64,000 nucleotides of DNA from Crambe crambe (lineage: Eukaryota > Porifera > Demospongiae > Poecilosclerida > Crambeidae). The position numbers and the translations under genes were made by a program. The stretch covers positions 5,021,001 to 5,085,000 of the forward strand of contig OZ004584.1 of NCBI GenBank assembly GCA_963924555.1, given 5' to 3'. Every line of letters starts with the position of its first letter. Position 1 is the stretch's first letter. Below, piece after piece: positions 1-58,505 of this stretch. The notes beneath the pieces were generated by a model that saw nothing but the letters and a program-made list of their open reading frames with translations, did not search any database and was not told the DNA's origin.

Positions 1-1
1 T

Positions 2-3000
2 CAAACTCAGCTCAAACTTCTTGATGCCAATGGAGTTGCTGATCTGTTGCCACTCGTATTTCCCCAAGATTGGGAAGAAAAGGAGGAATTGAAACTGGAT
101 GGAACTGATTTACCTGAGGATTGGCTTAAAGTCTTTTGGGAATGGGTGAAGGACTATAAACTCGAGCTTTTTGAAGGCATGCTTATAGTTCCTATTGCTC
201 ATCCCAAAACAAATTTGAGTATCATGAAATTGAAAGTGGATTTCGGTATTGTTTGTGTCCAGAGTTTTGATACACTTTCTAAAGATATGCAGGACATTCT
301 ACATAAACTGGATGTTAAGTACACTTTGTGTGAGAATGTACCATACTTTAAACACAAAGCCTTGTTCAAGTACTTGCATCCCTTTGAACCATCTGGCATT
401 CTCAGTGCTATTAAAAAGGTCCATCCAGTTTCTTCAATTCAGCGAGTATCCTTCTCAATTAAAAATGCCAAAGCTTTTCAAAACTTCATAGCTTCAAATC
501 CACACAACCTTGCAGAATACAGAGAAGTCATTGAGAATCTCAACATCTTTCTTACGCTTAGTGGCACAACACCTATTTCCTTAGCTACATCATCTGTCGG
601 CAAAAAAGTTGTAATGGAACCTCATGGTTTTTGTATCAGTCATGACAACTTACCCTCAAACCTGGTTGTACTGTCACTCTCTCAGAACAATCAAACTATT
701 CTCCACATAAGCCGCATCACTTGTTTTCCCAGTTCAAATGAAGAATTCATACTTCAGTTTATCTTCCCTCTAATCAGTAGTGGTACATTTGAACCCATGT
801 CGAAGCTCAGCCTTCTCATGCAGGAGATATTTGATGTATTTTCAAGTCTGAAGTCTCCTGCTTTCATCAATGCTCTAAAGAAACTTCCCTTTTTATCTTA
901 TAGTCCTGAATGTAGCAGTTGTAAATGTCCTCAAGATCTCTACGATCCTTCTAACAATCAGCTCAAGCAACTATACAGAGGAGAGGAAGTATTTCCTCGA
1001 CCTCCCTTCAATAAGGAGGAGTATTTGTTGCACCTACGTGCATGTGGTCTCAAGACTTCTGTTAGTGGGCAAGATCTTTATACTATTCTGACTGAGATTT
1101 CTAGGAAGAAAATTTCAAGTAAAACTAGAGCACAAGCAGTTTTGAGTTATATCAGATCTCACAAAGACCTGTTAAAAAGTGACTCAAAGGTGATGGTTTC
1201 AGAAAGGAAATTTATGCCCTTAAAACAGGCCATTGTAGATCTGGCATCTGAAAAGAGCATCCTGCCCATAGAGTCTCCCCCCTATTCAGAAGGATATCCA
1301 CGTTGTCTTCCATGGAAGGGTTCAAAGTGCACCTTTCACCTGACCACAATGAATTCTTCTGTGCTTCCATGTAGCAGTAAAGATATACACACTTTACCAA
1401 ACATTGTGGGCTCACAGATGTACATAGTTTTCTGTCCATCTGAGCTCTGTTCTGCTCTCTGTCCTGAGCCTCCTGTCAAGCATGTGATAACACACTTTAT
1501 GGAGGTCATCAAACACAAGAGTGAATTCAATTCCAGTCAAATGGATGAAATTGTAAACCAAACATATTCATACTTACATAACAACCTGCAATTTTTTCCT
1601 GAAAAATCAGAACTTCCGAGTGTTGACTTGCACAATACCAACTGGGTATGGGTCAGTGAACTACATAAATTCGTGAAACCAGAAACTATTGCTTTCAAAC
1701 GCCATCCAAAATTCTTGTATCCTCTCTCGCCTTTCTTCCATGTAGTCACAGAAAAATTTTCAAAAATTTCCTCACTTTTTCTCAAATTTGGTGCTCACAA
1801 GGAAATTACTGATCAGCTCCTTATTTCTGTGCTAAATGTAATCAAGAGTAAGAACCATTCAGTCAGCTGTGATGTGTGGGAAATGGTTTCAAACATACTG
1901 AATTGTGTTAGTGATCACGGAAAGAAACAAATCACCTTGGATGATGTTTGTGTTCCAGTTGAGTCTGAGTCATCTTATCCCGAGTTAGTCGCAGTCAATG
2001 ATGTGGTGTACACTGACTTGAACTATCTGAAGAATTTCCAACTGTCCAAAGATAAGTCCTTGAAATTTGTTCATAAAGATTTCGTGCATCTCACCTCTTG
2101 TTTAGGATTGACTCCTCTCAGCAAAGAGCTCAACATTTCAGATGATGCCTTTGAAGATGTTGGTCAGAGTGAACCTCTAGTGAAACGGCTGAAAAACATC
2201 CTCAGAGATTATAAAGATGGATTAACCATCATCAAAGAGCTCCTACAAAATGCTGATGATGCTGGAGCCAGCGAGGTCAATATTTGCTATGATGCCCGCC
2301 AACACAGCCAAGATGCCAGTAATCTGATATTCGAAGGGATGGTAGAATCTCATGGTCCAGCATTGATTGTTCAGAATGATCGGACCTTCTCAGATGAAGA
2401 TTTTATAAATATTCAAAAATTGGCTGGAGCTACAAAGCAAGATCAGCCTTTGAAGATCGGCAAATTTGGAGTTGGTTTTTGTTCAGTCTACCACATAACT
2501 GATGTGCCTTCCTTCATTAGCAGAGATTTACTGTACATATTTGACCCAACACTTGAATACCTGAAGGATGCAGTGAAGAATCCTTTGAAGCCGGGAAAAA
2601 AGTTACGTTTCACTGACAAGTGTGTCCAATATTCCTCTCAGATGGATCCATACAAGAACCTCTTTAACTTTGAGGTAAATGCTCCTTATGAAGGAAGTTT
2701 ATTTCGTCTACCATTTCGCATTCGCTCCAGCAGCATCAGTGGCATAAAGTATGGAAAAGAAGAAGTGGACAAGTTGATGTCCAGTGTGAAAGAGGCAGGC
2801 CCAAAGCTGCTGCTGTTCATGAAGCACTTAAAGACCATCACGTTTAGTCATATCGATGATGACCCAAAAAATCCCATTCGTCTCTTGACGGTATCAAAGA
2901 GTATGGTGAATCAGAATACCTCAAAAGGCAACATGCAAGATGCAACAAGTACAGAAATCCTGAGTGTGAAAGTGTCAGCAAGAACCCAAGACATGACAAA

Positions 3001-6000
3001 TGCAGAAACTATGAGTGTGAATGTGTCAGCAGGAACCAAATCACCAACTTCTGAGCACCTTTTTTTGATGGCAGAAAGTATTGATATTGAAAATAGTCAA
3101 GTAAGTGCTGTTGCTTGTTCATTAGAGAAGCTATCCAGTGCCCACACCTTCACTTATCAACCAAAAGTAGTCCGAGGGGAAGTGTTTTGTTTTCTCCCTC
3201 TACACTTGGAAACTGGTCTTCCTGTCCACGTCAGTGCCAATTTTGCCGTGATGAATGATCGAAGAGGCATCCACTATTCTGACAGCGTCTGCAAGAGTGA
3301 CGAATCTCAGTTTAACGTGCATCTGATGGAAGAGAGCATTCCTTTATCTTACCACAGGTTACTAACGACATTGCGAGAACTCTGCCTGAAAGGGCAGGTA
3401 TCTGCTAAAGATTACAAGTATTATTCTTTCTGGCCTTTACAGGAATCACTGAAGACTCACAATCCTTGGGATTGTTTTGTTCCCAAGTTGTATGCACGGA
3501 TTGCTACCAGTGAATTGTGCTATTCAGAATCTATTCAAGAATGGCAGTGCATCAGTAATAGCAGACTTGTCTCACTTAAAATTCTTCAAGAGGAAAGTTT
3601 TGATGATGTCTTTGATATTTTGAAAGTTCTGAAATATCCACTGATTCACCTTCCATTGAGTTACCACCCTTCTCTAGTGAATGAGGTCAAAAAGTCAACT
3701 ATTAACGATATACAGTTCATCCACATATTTTTCCAGAACATAGGAACATTTTCCGCTATTACTGCTACCAGAAATAGAATTCTATTGAGTTTGATGAAGA
3801 CTTATGCCATTCGTCCTTCACCTGAACTTGAGTCTATCATCAAAGATCACAACTGTATTCCATGTACTCCTCATGGACAGGTTCTGAAGAAATGCAGTGA
3901 AATCATTGACATTTCCAGTGAACTCAGTTCACTTTATGAACCCAAAGATGGCATGTTTCCTATAGAGAGTTTCAATAACGATATTATCAATATCAAGCTT
4001 GTGAGACTTGGAGCAATATCATCTCAGCTTCCGTGGAATATGGTTGTTGAAAGAGCAAAAAGTGTGAAGAAGCTCTATGCATCAAACAAGGAAAAGGCTC
4101 TGAAAAGAACTAATTTGTTGATCCATTGCATAGATACTAACTTGAAACAGCCTAATCTTCGACTATCATTGCCACAAGAGTTGACTGGGATTCACTTTCT
4201 TCCAATTCTACAGAAACCAAGTGATTATCCAAGCGAATTGAACTGGGAAGGTGATGGTAAAACCTTGCTCAGTAGTTCACAGGTCATAAGTTATAACAAA
4301 CAGAACCCCCTCTTAGTGGGCTCCAGAACCTGTATCATTTCTCAAGATTCACCTTCAAATGGTGGGTGTGGTTCTATCATTCCTCATGTTGTTTCTGCTT
4401 TGAAAATTGAACCATTGCCAACTGTAGCTGATGTGTTGGAACATCTAGAACATATTGCCAATATGTATTCTTCACGTGGGCCAACTTCGTGGATCACTGA
4501 AGCTTGTAATGAGATATACAAGTATTTTGAAAGAAAAATCTCTGAAGAATGCCAGTGTGGCACCACACTTAAAAGGCTTCTTTCACCCCCTGGGCTTCTC
4601 TGGAATGGAACTGAATTCATTTATCCCGAACAGATAGCTCTAAGTTGGAAACATGAAGGACCACACTTGTATGCGTTGCCCTCCCTGCTAAAAATTGGGA
4701 ATAGCAAGCTAAAGAAGTATTTACGCCTGAAGAAAGATTTCTCAACCAAACAACTCTTGCATGCTCTGAGTGAGATGAAGAGACAATTTGGTGAAGAAAA
4801 AATAAGTCAGAGAGAAGGGAAAATCATAGCAGACATTGCCATTGCTTTAGAAATTTCTTTAGAAAAAAGCCTCGATGAAAATATAATGCTGAGTGAGAAC
4901 CATGTATGCTATTTGCCTGATGAGAACTCTTACATGCGAGAAGTAAAAGACTTAGCATGGAACGATGCCCCATGGTACAGGTGGGAGCAAGAACATTACT
5001 TTGTACACAACTACATACCTCGATCAGTAGCCATTAGGCTGGGTGTGAGGGCAGTACGGACTAAGGCATTGGATATGTATGATTCCATGTATAACGATTT
5101 TGCTGGCGTTCCTTTCGGCCAGCATGAAGAATTGACTCAGAGAATTCGTAACATCCTGGATACTTACACTCATGATGAAACTGTGCTCAAGGAATTACTA
5201 CAAAATGCTGATGATGCAAAAGCAACTAAGCTGTACTTCATTTTGGATAAAAGGACGCATGGAAGAGAAAAAGTCCTTTCAGATGAGTGGAAAGATTTGC
5301 AAGGACCAGCTCTGCTTGTCTGGAATGACAAGGGATTCACAGAGGATGATATGAGAGGTATACAGAAGCTCGGTCTTGGAAGCAAAAGGTCAAAGGCAGA
5401 GAGCATTGGACAGTATGGAATAGGCTTTAATGTGGTGTACCACCTCACTGACTGTCCGAGTTTCTTTACCAATGGCAAAACACTGTGTGTTCTGGACCCT
5501 CACTGTCGCTACATGCCTGGGGCTAGTGAAAGGAAGCCAGGAAGGAGACTTGACAATGTGGATGAGAACTTTTGGTCAAATTATTCAGATCTCAAAACAG
5601 CATACTTGCGTGGGGGTCTTTCCGACTGCCCTAATGAGATCACACAAGGAGGTACTCTATTTCGATTCCCTTTACGTTCAACTGAAGACCTAGTGAAGAA
5701 ATCTGAGTTGATTGAGGAGAGAAACAAGAGCTTCACACAACCGTTATCAGCATGGAAATTGGAAAAATATTTGAAGGAATGGGCTCCAAAAATGAAGGAA
5801 GCTCTCATATTCCTCAAACATGTTACTGAATTGAAATTCTTTGTAATAACAGATGGTAAACTGGGACCTACAGCTATGATCACTGCTAATCATTATAAAA
5901 GTGAACTTGGCAATGAAGGAAAAGATGGACGATTGAAGCTGCAGGAAAGAGCTGTAACATTCACCGAGAATGGTACCAAAGAACCACTCTTGGTGAATTA

Positions 6001-9000
6001 TAAGCTTAAAGTAATTGAAGAAGTCCCTAACAAGAAAGAGGAACAATGGCTGGTACAGCAAGGGGTGGGTGACATCAACAAACCTTCCCAGCACTGGCAA
6101 TACCTCTCACACATCAAACCAATGCACGGAATAGCAGCTCAGATCAAAGGAGGTTCATTTACTCCTAAAATATTCTGCTTTCTCCCTCTCCCTAATGAAT
6201 CCAAGCTTTCAGTTCATGTAAATGGCAACTTTATTCTTGATTCTTCATCGCGCAGTACTCTGTGGCAGTCTCGCGATACTTCGACTCCCGATGACAAGAA
6301 GAAATGGAACAACAGGCTAATAGAAGCACTTGGAGCATCTTATGCAGAGTTCCTGGTTAAACTTCAAGATATTATTCTACAGAAATCATACACGAATTCT
6401 TCAAATTTATCAAGTGACATCAAATCTTACTATCATTTTTCCCCTAAGTGGATCAATAATACAAATTGTCCAGAAAATGAAATGAGGGATCTTGCACAAA
6501 GCACCTATAAAATCTTGGGAAACAAAAAGTGCAAAGTTCTTATCACTACCATAGAATCATCTTCACCTGAGATGTTTCCACCTCAGTCAAATGACACTGC
6601 ATCACCAATGGAATCTCCCCAGTGTATGTACACTGTTGAGTGGCATCCCACACTGAATGATGATGCATCAAAACAGATATACTTCTGGGAAGAGTCTGTG
6701 GAGTTGAGACCACTTTGTCTTATTTTGAAGCAGATAGGCATTACGCTGTCAGTAGCACCAATGTGGCTCAAAGAACACTTCGAGTCTGTTGGTATAAGCA
6801 TCCCTCAGGCACTCCCAGATTCAGTGTATGAATACTATACTGCACATTTTCATCAAATAAGTTCTACCAGAAAATTCCCCATCCACATCTCAGATACTTC
6901 CTTTGGAAATGTTAAATCCATGAAGAGATTCATACAATATGTTATAAAAAAGTATTATTCAGAAGATGAAAATGGAGTTACTTCCTCAAGAGTTATTTTT
7001 CCTTCTTCTCCATTTGGTTTTCCACTGCTGTTGACTGCTGATGAACAAGTGCGAATCCTTGATGAGAAAGAAAAAGTCATTTCATCTGAGTTTTCTTCCA
7101 TTTTTGAGCAAAATTCAGATATATTTCTTCACAGGGAAATTCAGGAACTCAAATTAGATAGCAGCTACTTTCTGCCACACAAAGAAAACTGGCATTTAAT
7201 ACAGCAAATCCTAAGCTGTACACTCAACAGGACCCTGAAGTGTGTCGATCGAGTCAAAAATGCCAGTGTCCATATCAATGTAGAAAGATTACTCAAACCA
7301 TTGTGGCAGTGTATGCACAATGATGGAGTGTTTAAAGAGCACTTGAAGCAAATAGTGAAAAATTGGGCTTTGATTTTATCCAATGGTGATGAATTGTACC
7401 GTTATCACTCAGATCCACAATTCTTAATGCCAGTTGTTCCTCCTCATATACCAAAATCTACCTCAAATACTTATCCTTCTCAAGAAGAAGATACTAGGCT
7501 TTATTCTTCCATTTTTGAAATCTTGAGAAATCATGGAATGCCAGTTGTAAGCAGAATAGTTCTCAAAGCTAAAACGTTCTGCCCTGACTTCTCTCACCCT
7601 AAAAGTATTCTCACCAACTTGCGCCATCTTTGTGATGAGAGTGGAGGGTTGGGCTCTCTTCTGGCAGATAGAGATGTGGATACTCATATTATCAATTTGT
7701 TCACTTATTTCAGCAAGATTCACTTTGCTCAAGATCTAATTAGTTGCCACAACATTAAACACTTGCCACTGTTCAAGAATGTTGATGGAAGATATTGTAA
7801 CTTAATGAATGAAACATATTTCTGGCTTGATCATGTCTGTATGGCTGGAATGAAAAAGTTGTTAGCACAAACATCTTCTATTTTCCTCAGACATCATGAT
7901 CCATGGAGAAGATTAACTGATCCTGGTACCCTTGGCATCAAAGAAATTCATGTATTGAATTTCTACGTTCGATTTATTTTCCCTCACTTCCATTTACTGG
8001 ATGGTGACGATCAAATCAGCCATCTTGTGCGCATAAAAGACAAACTATTACCTCAAGCTCAAGATTATAGCAATATGGAGTCTGACGAAGTTGCACAATC
8101 TATGGGTAATAACTTCATTGATAAATTGAAAGGATTGCCCATACTAGTGAGTGTTGATGGGTCCTTACAGCCGGCTCATAAATTTTATGATCCAGACAAT
8201 CAGGTGTTCTTAATGTTTCCTGACAAGTATATCTTCCCTCCCAAAGCCCTGTGTTCTGATGACTGGCTGCGATTCTTGAGAAAGATAGGTCTTCAAACAA
8301 AACCTTTCAAAGAGGACTACATTACGTTTTGTGTTCAAGTATCAAGAGGTGAACACAAAGAACTTGAGAAGGCATCTGCTGTACTCCTTACATTCTTATT
8401 CCAAATGCATGATTGGCATACAGATGGGACGTTTCTACAAAATCTGAGGAGCATTCCTTTTATTCTAACGAAAGAAAGAACTAATTTAGATTGGATTCGA
8501 CATGCCAGTACTGTTGGTGTCTCTATAATTCAACAGGGAAGTGCGAAAAAAGTGAGCCTAGTTTCTTCAAAGGATTGTGCAAGTGATGAATGTGATTCGT
8601 TGATTTGGACAGTGCTGCCTGTGGTGAAACTTCCAAGATTATCACATCCTCTAGGTCTTCAGCTGAAAAGGAGGCAAGATAGAGAAAGATTTTTTATGCA
8701 GATGTTGGGAATATGTGTGACACCTTCTGCTTCACAAGTTCTTGAAAATGTGTGTAACATATCCGTTTCACGATTCTACAACATCAAACTTTTTGATAAT
8801 TACAGTCTAGATTGCATCAAAGGCAAAGAAGACAAAGATTTGTTCATGGTTATTAAAGAAAATATAAGTTTCCTTGGCAACTCTAGTATATTTCCTTCCA
8901 AGTTGAGTTCTACTCCATTTATTCCAGTGAGCAAGGACTGCTCTGGTGATTCGTCACATCCAATTCTAGTCCACCCTTTACAAGTTGTCACTTCAATACC

Positions 9001-12000
9001 ATCAGAGTTTGCAACCTCACTTCATCCTTTCCTCGTTACCCTGTCAGTGGCACTTAAGCCATACATTAATTTCTTTGACAAGGTCGGAGTCAACCATAAC
9101 ATCAAACTAAGCAATATTTTCCATGCCTTTAAATTGATCCATTCTTACATTGAAATGCCTCTGGATCTCAACACTGTTGAATCTGTGAAGGCACTCCTCA
9201 AACTTCTCTATCAACAGTTGAGTTTAGTGACTTCCGATGATAAATATGAAGGAGATCACTTTCTTCCAGGTCATGACTACAAACTCTACAAGAGTACTAA
9301 ACTCCTTTATGATGATAGTGGATGTTTCAAAAAAGAAACTCTAAATTTTGACTTTTCTACAGCTCCGGATTATTCAATGATGTCCCTCCTCTGCCCAAAG
9401 CAGGAAGAATTAAGAATCTACAGTTTCTCAATGGTGGACTTAATACGAAAGATACCAGAGACTTTTCGTCCAATTCCACTTTCCATTGGATCGACCAATA
9501 AAATTCATAGCAGTTGTAAGCCACAGGTTAATCTCTCAGAATTCGCCAAAAAGATCGAAAGAGTATTCCAAATAAGTGATTTTGCTGAAGCAGCAAGGCT
9601 CTTGCTCATGGAGCATTCCAATGCTGACAAAACAGCCTGCAACCGGTTTGCTGCTGCTCTGAAAAAATTTATTGAGTCCTTGATAGTTTATTGTGTGCCT
9701 GATCTAAAAGTCGACATATTCTTGACTCTTGAGTCTCCTATCAAGATTGGTACTGCAGAAATGGACTTCTTGCTCTACAGAAAAGAGGGTAGCAGAGAAG
9801 AGAATGATGGATTTATTTTATACATTGACTCAAATGCCACTGCCCTTCGCTACAAACTTCTCGACTTGCTCACCAAATCACTAGTAACTGAAGTGCTAAA
9901 GATGAGTGGAATCAACAGTGAAAAACTCACTGAACCTGAAAAGGTCATGGAGCTGCTCCTTAAAGCTGAAAAACAAGAGGATATCAAAACAATTTTGAAT
10001 GACGTTGGAATAGATACTTCAGGAATGACATTTGAAAGGAAGTTTGATTACAATTTTAACCCAAAACTTGGAGAACCAATACCTGAAGAATGGCACCATC
10101 GCTTGCACTCTGATATTTATAACAACTTCAAACCTCAAGAACTTGTTGGATATGAAAAGAAAGAAAATGAATACATATTTGCTCGTGTGGAATACAAAGT
10201 CAGGAGAGTCTATACAGCTGATGAAGATGAAGAACTTGATAAGTATGTGATACGACTGAAAGAAAGGGAGGAGGAAGATGGTGTAAAAACAGTATCCGTT
10301 ATTGACCTGCACAAGATTCTTCGCATCAAGGAGGCCACCAGGAATAGCGATGTAAAAGAAATTGATCTTTATGATCCAGATAGTGAATCGATCAAATGGT
10401 GGGAGTCAATAAAAGATGATAAACTTAAAGATATCCTACTTAGAGTTTGTCAAGAACTCAAACAGATTCAAAAGATTCAAGACAAAGATGAGAGAAGAAG
10501 AGCCATAAAGGCAATGTATCTGAAATGGCACCCAGACAAGAATGAGCATCCTTTTGCAACGAAAGCTTTCCAATTTCTTCAGAAGCAGATCCAGCGGATG
10601 GAAGAAGGTCTTGAAATAGAGGATCCTGAAGGATGGGAGTCCAAGTCTAGCACATCATCATGGAGTCACAACTATCACTGGTTTCATTTTTGGGATGAGA
10701 TCGTCATTCGGCGCAGGAGTGGTCACGCAAGTGAGCAAAACTGGTGGAGGAGCAGTAGTAGCAGTTGTCAGAGTAGCGGGGTATCTTTTACAGTCTTGCC
10801 TGATCAGTTCAAAGCCAAGGTGTGGTTTGAGCAAGCTGAATGTGACCTACTTGCAATGCAGACCATGTATGATGCAGCACAGAACGAGAGCAAGCTCTGT
10901 GCACATGTTTGTTTCCTCGCTCACCAAGTTGCAGAGAAAGCACTGAAGGCAGGGATGTATGCTAAAAACGGTCTTCACCCTGATGCCCTCCAGCATCACA
11001 GTTTGATCGGTCATGCAAGGGCACTGGAACAAGTCGATACAGCCATGATTGGGTTAAGTGAACTGGCACGAACACTAGAAGGTAAAGACTACTATATAAA
11101 GTCAAGATACCCCAATCGGTACAATCCTCTTCAAGTCCCATCCAAGTGTCTCTGTCTCCCTCAAGCTGAAGAGGCTGTGAAAATCAGCAAAAAGATTCAT
11201 AAATACATTTCTGCTGCATTTAATCGTGGACTGGATACACTAACATCTTCATGTACTGATGTCTCAAAGGCTCTAAGTGATACCATTTCATCAGAGAGTG
11301 CTGATGAGGAAGAAGCACTAAACCACCATTGTAGTAATAATTTTACTAGTAATATCAATTCCACCGAAGATGTGCATACTTCTGTTGAATTAATTGCCAA
11401 CAAGTGCACTTCTACTGCATTAAGTACTTCGGTAAGTGAAAAAACCCAAACAGCATTTATGACTGAAAGAATTAGAGATAAGTGTTTTGATTCAAAGGGT
11501 GGTTTGTATCATGATACTACACATGATATTATTATCAGGGTACCAGAAGGGGCTATTCCTGGAAACCAAGCAATAGAGCTTGATATTGAAGCTACTTTGA
11601 CCAGCACATTGAAGTTACCAGAAGGCTACAGACCCATATCTCCAATCACTCGTGTGTGTGTTAAAAATGATCCATATTTCCAGTTTATCAAGCCAATTGA
11701 AGTTATGCTTCCCCATTTTCTGGATATTCAAAGCCAAACAGCAGTATTGGATAACCAAATCAGTTTCATGAAGGCAAATCATGGAGCAGATCACTTTGAA
11801 TGCATTGGACCACAAGCAAAGTACTTTGATTACTATGGTGTGCTGGAAACAGAACACCTATGCTATTTATGTATAGCTGCTGGCAAAAATCATTCACCAG
11901 ATGAGAGATTCAGTTTAATTCGTGTTATGCCTGAGATTCAAAGTGCCACAAAATGGACAATGTACTTTTATGTCACTTACAGTCTGTCAACATGTACCAA

Positions 12001-13240
12001 GGTAATACTGTTATTGTAGAACCTGTATGTTAATTAATGCAACTTTTACAGATGATCAAAGAGTTATTTCTAGAGAGAGGCCATTTTGAAGTAATATGGA
12101 TACGCGACTTCAGATTTAGTTCCATGAAAGATCCAATTGAAATTTTGTATGATAATGATATCACAGGTTGGAAAGTTTGCTGTGATAGTGATAATGAGGT
12201 TAGTAGCAACATGTGTAATTATAGTAGTGAGGAATTATTGTAATTTATGTTGTTGTCTTTTTCCATTGTTGTTGTTATTTCTTTTTGTACTCTCACAGAT
12301 ATTCCAAGAAGATGTGATGTATGATCCTGATATAACCGAAAAAGATCTAAAAGAAAAGTGTTGTAGTGACATGTATCCGCCGCGCTTCTGTATTCGGGTG
12401 TCTGGAAAAAGAGATAGTCCTGAAGTTGTTACCACATTTAAGTTTACAGGAACCACTAGAAATTTACGATCCCAAGTCATACTGGAATGCACAGGTAAAT
12501 ATTGCATGTGTGTAGATATTCTGTGCATCCATTAGAATAGAGGGTGGTGGAGCTACTGTATAATGTGAAATTTTGTGTAAGAGCTGAAATGTGAATGACA
12601 AAACTGAGCACAAACATTTCTCATTATACAGGATTATTTCAGGGATCCAGTAGATTCACATAAAATGGCGCATACCTGTACAGTCGTTCCATAGCTATAG
12701 GCCTTTTATCTAGTTAGTGCATAGAGGTAGGCATTATTATAATATCCATAGGCCCCAATCTATTTGTGGAGTTGAAAAGTGAGCCTGAGTGGGTTAAAGA
12801 TTACAGAGATAGATTATGAATCTGCAATTATTTAATAGGTGTGTAGCTGAGTTATTTATCATTGTTACATACGTACAATATTTATTGCTCTGTGTAATTT
12901 TGTTAAAGGTGGTGGAACTCAAGCTCAGCCACCTACACCTTTGCCCATAAATGGTTCTGAATTACAGTTAAATGAATTGATGGATGAAGTTGCTGCACAG
13001 ATACCAACCAAATGGTATTTCTTTGGAATGGAAATTGGAATACGGAAGGAAACATTAGATGTCATAGAACAAAACCATCCCAAAGATCAACTTCGTTGTT
13101 TTCTTGAAGTGTTTAGTGTATGGAAAAACCAAGTGACTGAAAAGATATATAGCTGGTCATCTGTGCTAAAAATATTGAGGGCACCTAGTATTAACAAGTG
13201 CAAAATTGCAGACGAATTAGAACTAAAATTAGCACAATAA
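2..13240 (+). CDS. Sacsin-like giant protein fused to a ZU5-UPA-Death tail (5' end outside the window)
   Basis: The frame is open from base 2, so the gene starts upstream. Exons by GT-AG and phase: 2-12001, 12052-12198, 12299-12494, 12909-13240 (TAA). Residues here are numbered from base 47. Two Hsp90-like ATPase regions are visible: ELLQNADDA near residue 731 with KFGVGF near 805, and ELLQNADDA near 1725 with QYGIGF near 1788. The first 700 residues look like the rest of an earlier sacsin repeat. A J domain follows (HPDK near 3494), then a HEPN domain (about 3586-3720). This order and spacing match sacsin, a cytosolic cochaperone of about 4,500 residues. The sequence then continues into ZU5 (about 3805-3975, with KGGLYHDTTHDIIIRVPEGA), a UPA region in exons 2-3, and a Death domain in exon 4 (MDEVAAQIPTKW ... 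WSSVLKIL). Sacsin normally ends at HEPN. No frameshift or stop interrupts it. A signalling role for the tail is inferred from UNC5/PIDD relatives. Confidence 0.9.
2954..3055 (+). repeat. 51-bp (17-residue) tandem duplication inside the sacsin-like gene
   Basis: Two adjacent 51-base units encode related segments (EILSVKVSARTQ and ETMSVNVSAGTK), spaced exactly 17 codons apart. The duplication keeps the frame and lies after the first visible ATPase fold, in what looks like a low-constraint loop. Confidence 0.6.
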
Positions 13241-13490
13241 TAGCACTAAACATGAGTATTTTTATGGTCAGTCATTTTTAATATTATTGCCAGAAACACT
13301 TGCAGCTACAATAAAATTTAATTCGGCTCTCTTTGAACACTGAAAAAAATAAGCATTTTCACAGGTTGTTGTCACTAGTGGGATAATTAAGTCATGCTAT
13401 TAGTTATAGTTAATGTCTGTACGTAGATATTGACTATATTATCATCCTTGATCCTATAGTCTGGAGGGAGGTCCCGCGATTGTAGGGGGA

Positions 13491-13634
13491 GGGGGCCCTC
13501 GGCATATTCCCCGATTAGCGTCAATTACTGATTAGCACCAATTAACTTGTGAGCTTGCTATAGCTAGATGTTTTGTGCTATTAAGCACCAATTACCAGTA
13601 ATTGACATTAGTTAGCAACCTGCCAAGGGCCCCC
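13491..13634. repeat. Imperfect palindrome, MITE-like
   Basis: The left end GGGGGCCCTCGGCA pairs with the right end TGCCAAGGGCCCCC. Inner blocks (GTCAATTACTG against CAGTAATTGAC) continue the pairing. The stretch 13241-13783, between the sacsin-like gene and the retroelement, holds no coding signal that I see. A short hairpin, AGAGGAACTTGTTCCTCT, lies at about 13682-13699. Confidence 0.6.
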
Positions 13635-13783
13635 TTAATTAATTAATATCTACTGTTTGTGGGGGATAGATTACCCATCCAGAGAGGAACTTGTTCCTCT
13701 CCCCCCAAACGGAGATAACTTCTTCCTTCCTTATATTAAGTATTATCTTAATTGATGCTTGATGACTGATTACATAATATTCA

Positions 13784-14797
13784 TTATGAGCGAGCTATAG
13801 ATATTGACAGTCGTGCTAATTGTTCTCGGGGTATCCTGATGTAGGCCAAGAATGCTGCACTGTTCCATCTACCCAACATCTGAATTGTCGAATCTTCAAT
13901 GCCAGCCCTGGCAGCTGAGGTGGCGGCTCCGATCCTAAAGCTGTGCCCAGCGAAGCTCTGGCACGGCAGTCCTACCACTCGAAGGGCCTGTCGGATGCGC
14001 TGTGTGAACTTCGACTTAGTCAGGGGTTGACCATTGTCAAACTTAAAGAAAGGACCTTCTTCATCACCACGAACTGCCATGTAAGCCAAGACACCGGCCA
14101 CTGGACACAATGCACATCCTGTCTTCCCAACGAACACATCAGCCCCATTACCCAACTGATCAGTCTTGGACTTCTTCAGTCTAATTTTCAGCATGGTAGG
14201 GGCCTCTAAACTATCCACGGCAATATCCCCCCAGCTTTATAGATGTTTGCCAGAGTCAAAGGCATTCAGTGATGGCAGTGTGATCTCCCCTGCTCTGAAA
14301 AAGCCAAAAAAGCAGAGTACCGATGCTGCCCACAACATTTTTATGTCCCTATCTGCCGCCCTTGGTGTCCAGTGCTCCTTAACCATCCCCAAAATGGCGG
14401 GTGTGATTGGGAGTCTAATTCTATTTGATAATGGGGACCGTTGTGCGTGTGCTCTCTTAATTCCCGACTGTACTAGCCGTAGTCTTGGGAGCGATGAGAA
14501 CTCCTTTGGTTCTGGCAGGCCTATAGTAATTTGCATGAATCTGATTCCTGCTAGGTAGGTTTTTATTGTTTGTGGGGATAAATTATTGGTTGCTAAATAG
14601 GAAGCGAAGTAGCACAAAATGGGCTCGGAAACTGGGAAGGGGGATATGACATTGTATAACGAACAAAAGTTAGCAAATTTTTTCAGTGCTGACTGGTACG
14701 TTTTGTGCGTTGACTCTGCTATACCCTTCGAACAATAGAACTGAACTGTTCTGTCCAGTTGGGTGAGGTCCAATCCAGTTCCTGCTGGAGTAGCCAC
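13784..14797 (-). pseudogene. Tyrosine recombinase of the DIRS/Ngaro element, one in-frame stop
   Basis: This is the element's integrase. An N-terminal SAM-like core-binding region (DRTVQFYCSKGIAESTHKTY) leads into the catalytic domain. Visible catalytic elements are the first arginine in FFRAGEI, the HxxR box in GHSFRIGAAT, and the tyrosine in LGRWNSAAFLAYIR. The two open stretches 14797-14240 and 14236-13784 are in the same frame and separated by a single TAA at 14237-14239. The sequence continues sensibly across it (HL, stop, SWGDIAVDSLEAP). The start overlaps the end of the RT frame by 79 bases in another frame, as is usual for this group. A single recent nonsense mutation is the simplest reading; read-through cannot be excluded. 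Confidence 0.82.
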
Positions 14798-16518
14798 TGC
14801 AGTAAAAGAGGTGGAATGAATGTTGGGTAAGGGTTGGATTCTTTATATTTTCCCATAAAGGATGATAATTTATCCCGTGACAGATCGTCGGCTAAGTCAT
14901 TGTCTACCCCGGGGATATGTGTGGCAACTGTTTTAAATTGGAAGTGTGCTTCAACGAAGAATAAACATCGGAGCATTCGCATTAGGTGCTTATCCTGGCA
15001 ATAACGCTTATTGACAACTGCTACCACCGCTGCATTATCACACTGTGCCAGAACTCTACAGCCTTTCCACTCCTTGCCCCAAACAATTCCGGCTATTACA
15101 ATTGGGATCAGCTCCTTAGCTGCGATGTGCCAACCTCGGACTTTATCGTTCCATCGCAGTTGGAACCATTTGTGGCTTGAATATGCTCCGCACCCCCATG
15201 TTCCGGATACGTCCGATGTTAACGTGACCTCTGTGCTGTTCTTATGAATCAGCAGTGAAGCCCCATTCCAGTGAGATGCAAAGACCTTCCACCACATCAT
15301 ATCTGATCTGAATTCGGCATTTAGCCGGATATGGTGGTGGCGGCATTTTACTACCTTCAGGAGGGATATGGCCCGCCTCATGAAGGATCGACCTGGGTGA
15401 ATTACTTGGCAAGCATGATGTAGTGACCCAATCAGTGATTCCAACTCATTCTTTGTGCAAGCTTTCTTCCCGATCCAATGAGTGACTGTCTCCAGTATTC
15501 TCTTGAGCTTATCCTCTGGGAGACGTAGTTCCTGTCTGACAGTATCAATCAAGATCCCTAGAAACACTATTTTGGTTGTAGGACCATCCTGTTTCTCCTG
15601 AGCCAACGGAACTCCTAATTCGGAACACACCCTGGAAAGGGTATGGAGCGCATCTAGACATCTCGTTGAATCAGGTGGGCCAATCACTGCAAAATCATCC
15701 AAATAGTGATAAATAGGAGAAACCCCTTCCTGAGAGACACACCATTCCAGTGCGTCAGCTAGAGCATTGAATATTTTTGGTGCTGATCTCAGCCCAAATG
15801 GCAGCATGCCATCTACGTATACTGCTCCATTCCATCTCATTCCTAAGTACCTACGGTCTTGCGGGCAGACTGGTACTAGCCGATATGCAGACTTTATGTC
15901 AATCTTTGCGATGAGGGCCCCTTTCCCAAGAGCCACTGCTGCTTCTGCTACTTCATTCACTGTTGTGTATGTAAGGGAACAGGACTCTGGGCAGATGGAA
16001 TCATTCACACTCGCCTCATCTGGGTAAGATAGATCCGTGATTAGTCTCCACTTGCCCGGTTGGTGCTTTTTTGGGATAACCCCAAACCTGTTGATGTGAA
16101 TTTTGGTTGCCATCTGTTCAGAAAATGGACCTAGTATGTTGCCTTTGTGTACTTCCTCGTCCAGATACCTCTCGATGACTTGTGGGTGCTGCTTCGCTGA
16201 TAGCATATTCTGCTGTGCTGATTTGAATGTCCTGGTGTCATCCCCTCCAATTGCAAAGCCATATTCAATCCCCTCCAAAATGTATCTGGCATATTCCTTG
16301 TCTGGATACTTGGCCAGCTTGTTCCTCCAAGCTGCCAGATTCAGTGGCGTTGAGATAGTGGCAAGGCGAGGGTCACAGACTGTTTGCCTTTTGGACCTTC
16401 CGGTCCCCAGTTTCAGTAGGTCTTGAGTATACTGATAGCCATCATCTGAAGCTGTGTTTAGTGTGTGTGCCAGAGATGATTCGATGTCAATAATTATTAT
16501 TACTATCTTTTCTTTCAT
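14719..16518 (-). CDS. Reverse transcriptase-RNase H polyprotein of the DIRS/Ngaro element
   Basis: This 599-residue frame copies the element's RNA into DNA. RT fingers and palm are clear: KWRLITDLSYP, AKIDIKSAYRLVPV, GLRSAPKIFNALADAL, and the YxDD box in YHYLDDFAVIG. RNase H follows (LTSDVSGTWGCGAYS, the acidic residue in AAKELIP, LAQCDNAAVVAVVN, and VDNDLADDLSR). The first dozen residues (MKEKIVIIIID) are translated microsatellite, so the real N terminus is probably an exon or frame further upstream. No methyltransferase follows RNase H. The frame is uninterrupted, suggesting fairly recent activity despite the stop in the recombinase. Confidence 0.88.
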   Translation of the reverse strand: MKEKIVIIIIDIESSLAHTLNTASDDGYQYTQDLLKLGTGRSKRQTVCDPRLATISTPLNLAAWRNKLAKYPDKEYARYILEGIEYGFAIGGDDTRTFKSAQQNMLSAKQHPQVIERYLDEEVHKGNILGPFSEQMATKIHINRFGVIPKKHQPGKWRLITDLSYPDEASVNDSICPESCSLTYTTVNEVAEAAVALGKGALIAKIDIKSAYRLVPVCPQDRRYLGMRWNGAVYVDGMLPFGLRSAPKIFNALADALEWCVSQEGVSPIYHYLDDFAVIGPPDSTRCLDALHTLSRVCSELGVPLAQEKQDGPTTKIVFLGILIDTVRQELRLPEDKLKRILETVTHWIGKKACTKNELESLIGSLHHACQVIHPGRSFMRRAISLLKVVKCRHHHIRLNAEFRSDMMWWKVFASHWNGASLLIHKNSTEVTLTSDVSGTWGCGAYSSHKWFQLRWNDKVRGWHIAAKELIPIVIAGIVWGKEWKGCRVLAQCDNAAVVAVVNKRYCQDKHLMRMLRCLFFVEAHFQFKTVATHIPGVDNDLADDLSRDKLSSFMGKYKESNPYPTFIPPLLLQWLLQQELDWTSPNWTEQFSSIVRRV

Positions 16519-16711
16519 TTTATTTATTTATTTATTTATTTATTTTTTATTTATTTATTTATTTATTTATTATTATTATTTTTTTAAATTTTTAAATTTT
16601 TTAAATTTTTTAAAATTATTATTATTATTATTTTTATACTATATTATTTCAATCCTCATTCCGTAGTTAACAGCTACGACAATGCAATTTTTTATTTTTT
16701 ATTTATTTATT

Positions 16712-16892: not shown

Positions 16893-17745
16893 TCACTTCT
16901 TTGGACGATATGGGGAAGGGGAACGGGCCCTTTTGGCTGCTGGTGGTCTTGTTCTTGGGCAGGTGCTCTTCGGATGAGCTCCCTGGCACTCCGTACAGGA
17001 ATGTATATACCTGCAGGGGTTATACCGGCATCTGTTTCCTGCTTGAGAGTTGTATAGTAAGCAGATCTTTCTCATGGTCCTTGGTGTGACCTTGCTGTTG
17101 CTGGAGTCTCTGTTGGCAGGAGTGTCAGGTGCATACACGCAGGTGCTAGAGGAGTGGTGTTCGCTCAAGCAGTACCTACATCGTGTGATTGATTTTGCCC
17201 GACCAGTAAATGTTTCATTATATAAGGTGAAATCTACCATTCCCCACTCAAGGGATTTTGTGAAAGAGGCTTTACGCCGGAAGCATGCGTCGTAGGTCAC
17301 CCATCCCTCGCCGATGAAGGTTCGGTGAGCTTTCACAATTGTCTGCTGGTAGGCCATCAGCTGTGGTATCTTTTCTGGAAATTTTGTTGCCAACACAGAG
17401 ACAAGCAACGCATAGCATTCGACCCATAGTAGGATGTCTGTTACTGGGCCCCGACGAGGTATGCGACGGATCTGGTGGCAGCACTTCTGTTCGTCCTCCT
17501 GGAATCTCCAGGCATCTGGCACCAGCTCACTCATTTCCACATATTCGAGATCCTGTATCCTCTGGACTAATTTTGGTGGCAGTGCTGAGGACTCTTTCAC
17601 GGAGGAGATCATGCGTGTCCCGCTGTTCGATGTAGCTGTCAGTGGCAGTGTTAAGGTCCTCGTGTTTGGTGTTGTGCTTGCATCAAAGATGTTGATTCCA
17701 TGTAGTTGGCTGGTGGTGGCATGATCCCTAGCCCTGCAAGGGAAG
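16893..17745 (-). CDS. Gag-like zinc-knuckle protein of the DIRS/Ngaro element
   Basis: The ORF with an ATG at 17612 extends upstream in frame to a good 3' splice site (CCCTTGCAG near 17746), so the true exon is longer. It shows a capsid-like middle region (GWVTYDACFRRKASF) and cysteine/histidine clusters near the C terminus (CRYCLSEHHSSSTC and CRYNPCRYIHSCTECQGAHP). It ends in a basic tail (KRARSPSPYRPKK). This layout is typical of gag-like ORFs in sponge and cnidarian tyrosine-recombinase retroelements. Joining to the exon at 19156-18988 does not work in simple phase, so either a splice site was missed or there is a small frameshift. Confidence 0.65.
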
Positions 17746-17788
17746 GGGGGTGGCTCAAGATAACACTTTTTTTTTCTTTTTTTTTTTT

Positions 17789-17805
17789 GGGGGGGGGGGG
17801 GGGGG
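17789..17805. repeat. Poly(G) run of 17 next to poly(T)
   Basis: A G17 run follows a T-rich stretch. It lies in the probable intron of the retroelement's gag-like gene. Long G runs can form quadruplexes and are prone to sequencing error. Confidence 0.8.
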
Positions 17806-18262
17806 TTCCCCCCACCTGGCTGCTTGAGGGATGGCAGGAAACGTGTCGTTTTATTTAGGCGAGTTTTTTTTTTTTTTTTTTTTACGTAATAATTTCCTGT
17901 AGCTATTTATCGATAAAAGAGTTGCGTTTTGCCTTATTTGGGTACAGCTCAATCAGCACGAATTCTGAGCTCTCAAACTAGCTCAATCAGCACGAATTCT
18001 GTTCTCGTGGCACTACTCCCTCTGTGGTTAGCATGCTTGCCCAAGGCTTGTGGCAGTTTTTTTTTGTTTTGTTTTTTTACAGCTTGCATGCATCATGCAT
18101 GGCTCTTGTCTGGTGATTGCTAAGTGAGCCGCTTTGCATGTGGACCGCTTGTCCCCTTGCTTGTTAGCTACGAGTGAGCAGCTTGCTCACTTCTTTTCTT
18201 TTTTTTTCTTTTTTTTTTTTGTAGAGCTTACTAAGTGAGCAGCCTGTTCGGGGCTTTTGCAG

Positions 18263-28053: not shown

Positions 28054-28392
28054 TGATCAGTTTGATTTCAAAATTGGCCAATTAGAAAGTTAATGACATA
28101 ATATTAGCACAAAGTATAAAATCTGATTGCTCCTCAATAATTACAACTTGTGTTTGTCATTATGTAGATTTGGTGGACATAATTATTTCATGCGAATTAT
28201 AATAACATTGCAATAAAAATGAAAATACATTGCTGCTGGCTATAACAAACTTAGTGTCATCACTGTATTTCACATACGTAAGTTACGTAGCTATACATAA
28301 GCAATATAATAATTGCCACGATTCGACAATTGACATCCTTTCTTGTGTACATATGTACAATTCAAAATAAGCTGTCTACATAGCTTGAGTTC

Positions 28393-31018
28393 ATGACATC
28401 CATCGACCAATTACAAGTGAAATGTTGTGCAATTGAAATGGCAGGTGACTTCACAACAGCCATGCCTCTGATCAAAGATGTGAAGGATGAAACCAAGGAT
28501 GAAACACTTACACTCCAGTTATTGAATAGATACACTCCTCTTCACTATGCCTGCCAGCATGGAAGAGTAGATATTGTTGAAGAGCTCATCACCAAATACA
28601 ACTTCAGTATAGAGAGCAAGGATGATACTGGGTATACACCCATTCACATAGCAGCTCTGTATGGACACTTGAATGTGTTCAAATACTTGCTAGCAAACTT
28701 GAAGTCTGAGTTAGATGACTATGTTAATAATGAGGGTAATACCCCATCACATATAGCAAGTAGACATGGTTGCCTTGATATCATCACATATCTCTTCTCC
28801 AAGGAAATTGGTTGTAGCCGAAACAAAACTAATAAAGGTCTGTCCTGTTTACACTTGGCTGCACAGCATGGCCATTTCCTTGTGGTGAGGTTTCTGTTGG
28901 AGGAAGTAAGTTGTGATATTAGTCTTGTGGATGAGCATGGGAGGTCTCCTGTTTACCTTGCTGCAGGAGGAGGGCATCTAGATATCCTCAAATACATGTT
29001 AGAGCAGAAGCAAGCAGATGCACAATTCAAAACCACAAAGGAATGGAAGAGTGATAAATTCACCTTTGCAGCAGGTAGGTCACTAGTGCATACGGCCAGT
29101 CGTGAAGGACACCTCAGTGTGCTCAAATACTTAGTGGACCATCAGAACGGTAATCCATCTTGTTGGGATGATGTGGGGACCACTCCATTGCACCTTGCCT
29201 GTCAGCAGGGTCACATGGACATTGTGGTGTACCTGATTACTGACATGCATTGTGACCCTCATTGCACAAGTGACAATGGGATGTCTTGTCTCCATTCTGC
29301 TAGTGTGGGTGGTAGCCTGAATGTCATACAGTATCTTATTGATGTTCACCACTGTGACTCATTATCCAAGAAAAGGACAACTAAACAATACACCTCTTCA
29401 CTTAGCTGCTCTTTGGCTGTTGTCAAGTATTTTATTGAAGAATTAAAGTGTGATCCCAACAGTAAGGGTCAATGGGGTAGAATACCTCTTCATTATGCCA
29501 GTGAAAATAGTCACCTTGATGTCATACATACAGTATCTGATCACTGTGACCCTTCATGCACAGATGAAAGTAATACCACTCCATTACACCTTGCCAGTCT
29601 AAAATGGTCACTTAACCACAGTGAAGTACCTCACTGTGGAACACAAATGTGACCCATTGTCCAAGAATAAGTACAACGATACACCTCTTCACTATGCCAT
29701 TTTGAATGGTCAGTGTGATAGTTTTTTTATATCTGCTAGAATGCAAAGGCTCTAGCTTGACAACTTTAACTCATGATGGTTCGTCATATCTACATGTTGC
29801 TTCTGAATGTGGTCACTTAAATATAGTGTTGCAAATAACTCCAATCCTTTGCTGCTTAATTCTAAGAAGCTTACCCCTCTTCATCTAGCTGCTACAAACA
29901 TGCATCTAGATGTATTTGATTATCTGTTTGATAAGGTGAAAACTGACCCTTTACTTAAAGAAGTACACTTTACTTTCCGTGACCAAAGTGCACCTCTTCA
30001 CTTAGCCTGCCAGCATGGAAACTTGAGTAATATTCAACATCTCATGAGCCTTAATTACAGCATTGAGGCTAAAGATTGCAATGGATGCACTCCTCTTCAT
30101 TATGCTTCTCAGCATGGCCAGTTGAAAATATTGAAGTATTTACTACAACACATATTTGATACTGTTGATGAAAACTACTTACAAGCAAAGCATTACCAGA
30201 CACTCTCTCTCTCAATGAAAGAGACTTATAATAAAGTGATCATTTCTACTTATGTTGACAAAAGTGACGACACTCCATTGCACACTGCATGTATCCATGG
30301 TAAAATTAACATTGTACGCTTCCTGGTGTTTGAGATAGGCTTAAATCCAAATTTTCTCAATAAAGATCATCACTATTGCATGGACATTTCGACATAGTTC
30401 AATTATTAGTCACTGATGCAAAATGTGATGTTAATTGTATTGATTTGTATGGGAGATTCCCCGCTTATTTTGCTTGTGAAAAGGGATACCTCTATAGATA
30501 TCCTCAAATACCTCAGAGGCAAAGGTGCCAATCCATTTATCAAAACAACTAAATTATGGACCAGATGGAATGCTTCATATTTTCCTGGTCTCACGTTGGT
30601 TCATATTGCATGTCTTGAAGGACACGAAGAAATGATGAGATATCTGACTGAAGATTGTGGCATCGACCCCATGAGTAAGGATGAACAAGGTGTTACTCCT
30701 CTCCATCTTGCTTGCCTAAGTGGACATGCTGACATAGCAAAATATCTAATTATTGAACAGTATTGTGATCCTCATCTTTGTCTTAATGATGGACGAACTT
30801 GCCTTCATGCTGCAAGTGGAGGTGGTAATCTAAATATGATAAAATATCTGATCACCAAGTGCAACTGCAATGCATCAACTCAAGATGATAATAATCATGT
30901 TCCCTCCTACTATGCCTTAGAAAAAGGTCATTTGAAAGCTGCAAAGTATCTAGGGACTCTTCCAAATGAGAATGACAAGAAGGAGTTATTCAAATTTTCT
31001 GGAGTAAGTGGGATATAG
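28393..31018 (+). pseudogene. Ankyrin-repeat gene body, multiply frameshifted
   Basis: The frame opens at the ATG at 28393 and stays open for 419 residues to 29652. It carries about a dozen ankyrin repeats with the standard TPLHYAxxxGH...VxYL pattern (TPLHYACQHGRVDIVEEL, SCLHLAAQHGHFLVV, TPLHLACQQGHMDIV). Ankyrin repeats then continue in other frames (29807-30397 and 30416-31018). Frame changes fall near 29605, 29715, 29830, 30380 and 30490. No intron signals explain them, so this is best read as a pseudogene. Such repeats bind protein partners. The block leads directly into a ZU5-UPA-Death tail, so the parent gene was an ankyrin-ZU5-UPA-Death protein resembling ankyrin family members. Confidence 0.85.
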
Positions 31019-31104
31019 TCCAGTACCTTCTTGGTGAGGGAAAATGTGCAATACATGACTTAAATTCATGGGAGAGAACTTTATTCGACTCAAAATTCCC
31101 ACAC

Positions 31105-57801: not shown

Positions 57802-58505
57802 TCAAGGTTGGAGAAAGAGATAGCCCCACCACATTTAAGTTTACAGGAGCCACTAGGAAGCTACAATCACAAATAATATTGAAATCCTGCGCAGGTAAAT
57901 AGCTATATTATGTCATTGTGTGTAGTACTACATCACTATGCCTGTTATTATGGAGGTTATTCTGCTAATTCTAGTGAAGTAGCTAACACTTTGACACTTA
58001 GCTAGTTGTCCCAGTACACACACCATAAAATATCTGGCTTGTTACTGAGTGTGTGTAGCTAGAGGGAGTTACAATCCATAAGCAAGATCCCACAGATATA
58101 TGGCTAGGAATTCAATCTTTCACTTTCTAGTTCTGTACCTGATATATAATACTTTTGCTTTGTATTTTTTTTAAAGATGGTGCAACTCGAGATCAATCAC
58201 CTATCCCTTCTCTCAGGAATGGTTCTGAATTAGTGACTTAATGAATGAAGTTGCTGCGCAGATACCAACCAAATGGTATCTCTTTGGAATTGAGATTGGT
58301 TTGCAGAAGGAAGCACTAGATGTTATAGAAAAAAATCATCCCAAAGATCCTCATCGTTGTTTTTATGAAGTACTTGGTGCATGGGAAAAACAAGTAACTA
58401 AAATGCAATATAGCTAGCTGGTCATCTGTGTTAGAAATACTGAGGACACCTATTATTAATGAGTGCAAGATTGCAGACAAATTAGAAAAGAAACTAGAAT
58501 TGTGA
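57802..58505 (+). pseudogene. Third UPA-Death fragment, decayed
   Basis: The start (ERDSPTTFKFTGATRKLQSQ) matches the second UPA exon of the sacsin-like and ankyrin genes and ends at a conserved GCAG|GTAAAT splice site. The Death exon follows after TTTAAAG near 58174 (MNEVAAQIPTKWYLFGIEIG). It carries a deletion before LMNEVAA and a 4-base AGCT duplication at the WSSVL position, which shifts frame; the remainder reads WSSVLEILRTPIINECKIAD. The ZU5 part is absent, and the 1.8-kb element abuts the break. Confidence 0.8.

Follow-up and report, generated by a model that had tools for sequence, protein, structure and literature searches.

A predicted in-frame fusion of a sacsin gene to a ZU5-Death tail of the kind found in neighbouring ankyrin-repeat genes of the sponge Crambe crambe

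How can a sacsin gene, which would be expected to end with its HEPN domain, run on into a ZU5 domain and further exons? The question is raised by a window of 64,000 nucleotides from the sponge Crambe crambe (assembly GCA_963924555.1, contig OZ004584.1, here C6; the window is C6:5021001-5085000), which was earlier described, from its letters alone, as carrying a sacsin chaperone fused to a ZU5-UPA-Death signalling tail (below, the sequence-only reading). The window was analysed together with the rest of the genome (143 megabases, 119 contigs). As expected of a demosponge, this genome has a single exact copy of the mature miR-2019 listed for demosponges in PMC4752309, and its surroundings fold into a hairpin at -44.6 kcal/mol. 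Judged from its sequence, the locus is best read as a real, young and in-frame fusion of sacsin, ZU5 and Death parts. We consider it fairly probable that it is a young chimera, in which a duplicate of sacsin stands in the place of ankyrin repeats, with a possible link from stress to cell death.

The open frame covers window positions 2 to 12019 on the forward strand (4005 codons), passing from the sacsin repeats through the J and HEPN domains into ZU5, and in the frame list of the genome it extends upstream of the window to 4,537 codons. Exons 2-12001, 12052-12198, 12299-12494 and 12909-13240 are joined by GT-AG splicing in a single frame that ends with TAA at 13238-13240; three GT-AG introns separate the ZU5 exon from the Death-like exon with the stop. 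Two further exons lie upstream of the window, exon 1 with the start codon (C6:5015574-5015687) and exon 2 with the first GHKL module, which brings the complete model to 6 exons and 4,864 codons. The continuous frame and the consistently phased exons claimed by the sequence-only reading were therefore recovered, with the stop at 13240 and no frame break throughout the gene model. The features of the predicted gene within the window are as follows.

1..12001, forward strand: giant exon 3 of the fusion gene, beginning about 1.5 kilobases (kb) before the window, sacsin to 11227 and tail from 11228, based on the open frame and the donor AAG followed by GTAATACT
2171..2875, forward strand: best copy of the SACS domain in the window (Pfam PF25794, 501.9 bits over the whole protein, in two stretches)
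5168..5428, forward strand: third GHKL ATPase module, HATPase_c_3 (Pfam 28.8 bits, cut-off 25)
10466..10585, forward strand: J domain with HPD (KWHPDKN; Pfam DnaJ 19.6 bits, below the cut-off of 27.8)
10817..11206, forward strand: HEPN domain (Pfam 42.9 bits, cut-off 22)
11227..11228, forward strand: fusion junction, where CGT, the final sense codon of sacsin, meets the linker of the ankyrin genes (GGACTGG...) with a 2-base overlap GT, from comparison with L014, L010, L011 and L012
11228..11482, forward strand: linker from ankyrin-ZU5-Death genes, the first part of the stretch of 79-84% DNA identity to L010-L012 that starts at 11228
11483..11737, forward strand: ZU5 domain (Pfam 22.1-26.8 bits, cut-off 21; ZO-1 ZU5 by profile at an expectation value (E) of 0.058)
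12052..12198, forward strand: exon 4, between ZU5 and Death, UPA by position only, without a Pfam UPA match; GT-AG borders common to the aligned L010-L012 exons
12299..12494, forward strand: exon 5, between ZU5 and Death, UPA by position only, without a Pfam UPA match; borders as in the L010-L012 exons
12909..13240, forward strand: last exon with the stop, carrying the Death-like domain (12965-13132)
13310..13315, forward strand: AATAAA/ATTAAA, 70 bases past the stop, the sole copy in 10901-13900 by script scan

The two sides of the join have different relatives. A plain sacsin, sacsin A, starts about 158 kb from the fusion on the same contig (exon 1 at C6:5173760, giant exon 5182385-5195151). 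At the DNA level it resembles the fusion in the compared exons and in parts of the first two introns, and this similarity stops at window 11227. The sequence from 11228 onwards has 79-84% identity to three ankyrin-repeat/ZU5/Death genes, L010, L011 and L012; for L010 and L012 this takes in the two short introns, and the identity in the last exon is 83-86%. At the break, sacsin A reads ...AATCGT TAA, the fusion ...AATCGT GGACTGGATACACTAACATC..., and L010 and L012 ...GACAGT GGACTGGATACACTAACATC..., with two differences in L011. From this alignment the break lies exactly behind the last sense codon of sacsin, the bases GT being common to both sides. A chance open frame was rejected, as the sacsin side and the tail side can each be matched, right up to the break, to genes at other places on this contig. 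The gene structure, its origin, the exact break and the constraint on the sacsin part (below) can be read from the sequence itself.

The ankyrin-repeat/ZU5/Death genes form a tandem array around the window, with long frames at C6:5006k, 5102k and 5142k, and the stretch that matches the tail shares an open frame with their ankyrin repeats. The GT-AG borders of the tail exons are kept as in the three ankyrin paralogues L010-L012. Two members at 5053k and 5079k have decayed: in window 28384-33102 (forward strand) the ankyrin frames are in pieces and the tail at 31525-33102 has frame breaks, and in window 57810-58496 (forward strand) there is another tail of the family, fragmented and with broken frames.

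To place the event in time, the ends of other sacsins were compared. From 24 other HEPN places 12 were fetched, giving 11 sacsin frames and one short HEPN frame (L028). Every one of the 11 sacsin frames stops shortly past HEPN, as the sequence-only reading had stated for sacsin in general, and none has a match to the tail at E <= 0.01 in the 4.5-8.0 kb downstream. The sacsin stop is therefore ancestral and the fusion derived. By eye, the fusion is also the sole pair of HEPN and ZU5 in one frame among the 64 ZU5 and 25 HEPN places listed. Over 4336 aligned codons, sacsin A and the fusion share 95.0% protein identity, with a synonymous divergence (dS) of 0.080 and a nonsynonymous divergence (dN) of 0.023, and 3.9% of bases differ between the sacsin side and its closest relative; the tail has a dS of 0.23-0.25 to the ankyrin genes and differs in protein from three ankyrin tails by 24-26%. 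The fusion is no older than the arrival of the present sacsin copy.

These data bear on two other explanations of the join. The tail could be old and regular in a sacsin-Death family and have been lost from the other sacsins, and sacsin-like Death proteins have indeed been reported from the sponge Amphimedon in the available text of PMC3710099. However, this was rejected as scarcely credible, since all 11 other sacsin frames compared end soon after HEPN and the 4.5-8.0 kb downstream of them contain no match to the tail, and the closest relatives of the tail are the ankyrin genes next door, whose match starts at 11228 within an ankyrin-coding frame. Alternatively, the assembly could have joined a sacsin path falsely to the tail of an ankyrin gene. 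Assemblers do fail in tandem repeated families, and the fusion is known here from the assembly alone; nevertheless we regard an artefact as very improbable. Both sides have diverged from the relatives compared, by 3.9% of bases for sacsin and 24-26% in protein for the tail, so neither is a copy borrowed by misassembly, and the join keeps the frame and sits precisely at the final sense codon of sacsin. Furthermore, when 40 of 163 first-look candidates for the 3' flank of sacsin A were scored, the flank itself was the one full-length place and the others were partial, dispersed-repeat matches, so that no orphan sacsin end was found.

The copying itself appears to have been by DNA. A retrocopy was rejected, as pieces of introns 1 and 2 are common to sacsin A and the fusion at 77-88%, one of them inverted, and because of these shared intron parts the sacsin is taken to have been copied as DNA. 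The inverted piece, of about 0.77 kb, lies in intron 2, and intron 1 is about 5.9 kb long in sacsin A (C6:5173874-5179770) compared with 0.5 kb in the fusion (C6:5015688-5016181). In our reading, a whole sacsin, from its start exon and the exon of the first GHKL module to its giant exon, was copied into or within the array of ankyrin-repeat/ZU5/Death genes. The end of sacsin was then joined to the linker of an ankyrin gene, with the sacsin stop and the ankyrin repeats lost and the frame kept open, as the sequence shows; the simplest route would be a deletion between neighbours.

The tail that follows HEPN has 482 residues. Its ZU5 domain exceeds the Pfam cut-off. Pfam Death gives E 0.046 in the fusion and 0.00097 in the best of the four tails scanned, and profile matches of the tail to FADD (E 0.036) and CRADD (E 0.2) stand in a list where evident chance matches have E 0.38-0.81. 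The tail query also hits six places (E 7.6e-6 to 6.2e-4) that score as Pfam Death above the cut-off, namely C15:1453995, C15:1533028, C17:3699848, C8:8708122, C19:5013302 and C8:774473, and because of this the tail is accepted as carrying a Death domain. UPA can be placed in the fusion by position only. Thus, of the ZU5-UPA-Death tail as it was described, ZU5 was recovered, the Death domain is accepted on scores below the cut-off together with this transitive link, and UPA has no Pfam match. Nor is the tail specifically of the PIDD/UNC5 type, as had been suggested, its closest relatives being the adjoining ankyrin-repeat/ZU5/Death genes. Where PIDD cleaves itself at His-Phe-Ser, the tail, at a position located by eye, reads His-Leu-Cys, which is kept in the ankyrin paralogues, with His-Phe-Cys in L025. 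A search for relatives in viral contigs gave 9 pattern matches, of which 0 were confirmed.

The sacsin part is under purifying selection. Its dN/dS between the fusion and sacsin A is 0.28, and it has 0 stops, compared with 8.9 expected under neutrality if half of the changes are counted and 17.6 if all are. When changes were assigned to lineages with L020 and L021 over 1359 codons (12 differences unassigned), the fusion lineage alone had 16 nonsynonymous and 14 synonymous changes (P 0.0012 against neutrality). Some of this constraint may be older than the fusion. The sequence-only reading took the absence of frame breaks as an argument for function; for the sacsin part this is good evidence, and for the tail it is weak. 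Against three ankyrin tails the dN/dS of the tail is 0.53-0.57; the ZU5 and Death exons give 0.42-0.45, the region that separates them 0.74-0.78 and the linker 0.54-0.79. Maintenance of the tail by selection is, at most, weakly suggested.

Several results weigh against a working ZU5-UPA-Death tail, and they have to be considered together with the possibility that the fused DNA is real and its tail a passenger, left untranscribed or functionless and bound to decay while the protein keeps a plain sacsin function. The Death-like domain (12965-13132) scores 13.4-14.3 bits, below the Pfam cut-off of 22.6. For UPA there is no Pfam match at E 5 in any of the four tails scanned, and no place genome-wide is above the cut-off, the sole match being weak and elsewhere than in the fusion. 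AlphaFold models of the Death exon and the ZU5 exon (mean predicted local distance difference test, pLDDT, 49.9 and 36.4) are of low confidence and uninformative; a fold search of the PDB with the Death-exon model, to which the same pLDDT of 49.9 applies, gave no match at E <= 0.001. Among the ankyrin tails themselves, dN/dS is 0.74 for L010-L011, 0.71 for L011-L012 and 0.26 for the nearly identical L010-L012, and the value of 0.53-0.57 for the fusion is mostly from time spent in ankyrin genes, whose own tails are loosely held. If the tail has been neutral since the duplication, no stop is expected in 9.5% of runs (P about 0.095), which, with the youth of the join (dS 0.080 between the sacsin copies) and the decay already seen in sibling tails of the window (31525-33102, 57810-58496), would fit a passenger. 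In codons 2800-3200 of the alignment of sacsin A and the fusion, dS is near 0, compared with 0.04-0.17 elsewhere, which suggests a recent gene conversion between the two sacsins, and conversion would also erase decay. On the other hand, every tail exon, splice site and the stop are intact, and, as the sacsin stop is gone, translation has to run on into the tail wherever the exon is transcribed. The sole polyadenylation-like signal in the scanned stretch also sits past the tail, but this argument is weak, as no such signal lies within 600 bases past the last exon in L010 and L012. Overall, we find a passenger tail unlikely.

It is also possible, though in our view doubtful, that the protein is made and that its tail is a structural adaptor, tethering sacsin to membrane or cytoskeleton like the ZU5/Death end of an ankyrin and taking no part in death signalling. 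The donor-type genes have long ankyrin arrays ahead of ZU5 and Death, which would agree with this, as would the fact that ankyrins, with their repeats followed by ZU5 and Death, are scaffolds and not death receptors, and the ties of sacsin to intermediate-filament and mitochondrial quality control. However, the module of ankyrins is ZU5-ZU5-UPA, whereas a single ZU5 and no UPA can be detected in the tail. Death domains are also abundant in this genome (965 first-look candidates, of which 150 were scored), so signalling partners exist.

If the young chimera does link stress to death, it could work as follows. The predicted protein would have a full sacsin scaffold, with three GHKL/sacsin repeats, J and HEPN, and a C-terminal ZU5-Death tail, and the sacsin part could serve as the input arm instead of ankyrin repeats. 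The sacsin repeats may bind clients or stressed or damaged filaments, while the J domain may recruit Hsp70. Oligomerisation or a change of shape could then cluster or uncover the Death domain, which might bind homotypically to the sponge's own Death adaptors and nucleate Death assemblies. One transcript, a stable protein and any signalling are, for this gene, what we infer. Of the sensor coupled to apoptosis or immunity that the sequence-only reading proposed, the fusion gene has thus stood; the coupling we infer as well, and the idea is already found in the available text of PMC3710099 (2013). More tentatively, and with some doubt on our part, the chaperone could have taken over the receptor arm of a Death gene in one step and become a working sensor that turns client load into Death-domain output, with the array supplying ready-made tails for new input domains.

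Compared with sacsin (SACS), the fusion has the three GHKL/sacsin repeats, J and HEPN in equal order, with the 95%-identical plain sacsin A on the same contig, but sacsin stops after HEPN, and in the fusion the 482-residue ZU5-Death tail replaces that stop. The array genes L010, L011 and L012, and L013, which lies farther off, have the linker, ZU5 and Death exons of the fusion (intron positions aligned for L010-L012), with ankyrin repeats in the position that a whole sacsin occupies in the fusion. PIDD1, UNC5 and the FIIND of NLRP1/CARD8 likewise have a ZU5 followed by a death-fold domain, whereas the fusion is without leucine-rich or receptor parts and without a detectable UPA.

The available text of Anantharaman et al. 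(2013, PMC3710099) describes, from the sponge Amphimedon queenslandica, multiple proteins in which a sacsin-like part is fused to DEATH. It also notes that sacsin paralogues in some animals have DEATH domains at the N-terminus, and it suggests that such proteins could answer unfolded-protein stress with cell suicide. These share with the fusion the combination of sacsin and Death in a sponge and the same idea of suicide on stress; that text, as far as available, has DEATH at the N-terminus and names no ZU5, whereas the Death domain of the fusion is C-terminal, behind ZU5, and its donor-type genes and break are known. Proteins with TRADD-N, in the part of PMC8195603 available, are fused to sacsin and, separately, to UPA-ZU5, so that sacsin and ZU5 modules both occur in animal conflict proteins; the Pfam results for the fusion contain no TRADD-N family. 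A sacsin with a C-terminal ZU5-Death tail was not found described in the literature searched, which covers few subscription papers. Therefore, sacsin with Death in a sponge is already known, and what is new is a ZU5-Death tail derived from ankyrin genes, with its break resolved.

In animal immunity and cell death, a new combination of domains usually comes to notice long after its origin. Here the close sister of the sacsin parent, the close relatives of the tail donor and a single-base break are visible on one stretch of chromosome, which makes the locus a clean natural experiment on whether a Death-domain protein that receives a new input arm becomes a working sensor. It also illustrates one way in which sacsin-Death proteins of sponges can arise, namely when a sacsin captures the ZU5-Death tail of an ankyrin gene beside it.

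The domains of the sacsin part agree with a full-length sacsin scaffold. SACS is found by Pfam also in the first 400 residues of the full fusion protein (235 bits), QNADDA motifs occur at residues 39, 1389 and 2374 of that protein, and the genome search has three GHKL places in the gene. The solved J domain of KIAA0730 (1iur), which we take to be a name of human sacsin, matches the J domain of the fusion at E 1.6e-8. In human sacsin, HEPN serves in dimerisation or nucleotide binding. The HEPN-like protein 1ufb matches HEPN of the fusion at E 1e-4, and the alignments, including that of the paralogues, have RYPNRY in the fusion compared with RYPDAH in 1ufb. By the Rx4-6H rule for HEPN ribonucleases (RNases), as given in the available part of PMC3710099, the fusion HEPN is probably not an RNase, and its role may therefore be dimerisation or nucleotide binding. 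Pfam finds no ubiquitin-like domain in the first 400 residues, and only 38 residues precede ELIQNADDA in the model; the N-terminal ubiquitin-like domain of sacsin is described as a vertebrate addition in the same text (PMC3710099). No ankyrin repeat is matched by Pfam in window 2-12001.

Directly downstream of the fusion, on the reverse strand of window 14240-16527, Pfam identifies a reverse transcriptase frame (14722-16527) followed by a frame for the N-terminal part of a tyrosine recombinase (14240-14842), an arrangement that presumably represents a DIRS-type element; the frame 16896-17906 is without a Pfam match.

The sacsin family of this sponge is large, with 26 start-exon matches (E <= 1) and 25 HEPN places on C6, C9 and C18, and many of its frames have 4,200-4,570 codons. 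A search for N-terminal Death domains near other sacsins, drawing in part on the 150 scored of the 965 Death candidates, checked 37 Death-like places on C6, C9 and part of C18, and none lies within 20 kb of another sacsin start exon or sacsin HEPN except at the fusion locus and its upstream ankyrin neighbour. At C6:1749691-1776784 (reverse strand), two short HEPN frames that are not part of a sacsin flank a weak Death-like match on their own strand (C6:1759428, E 8.8e-4), and Pfam finds neither SACS nor Death in the frames beside one of these two. Two further genes, L023 (C6:3278001-3287900) and L024 (C6:2933001-2942900), form a divergent pair of sacsin size, with no J domain ahead of HEPN in the alignment and a slightly longer C-terminus. 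Finally, sacsin start exons occur in three back-to-back pairs at C6:6016k, 6037k and 6136k, about 130-220 bases apart on opposite strands, which suggests that the paired start exons share promoters.

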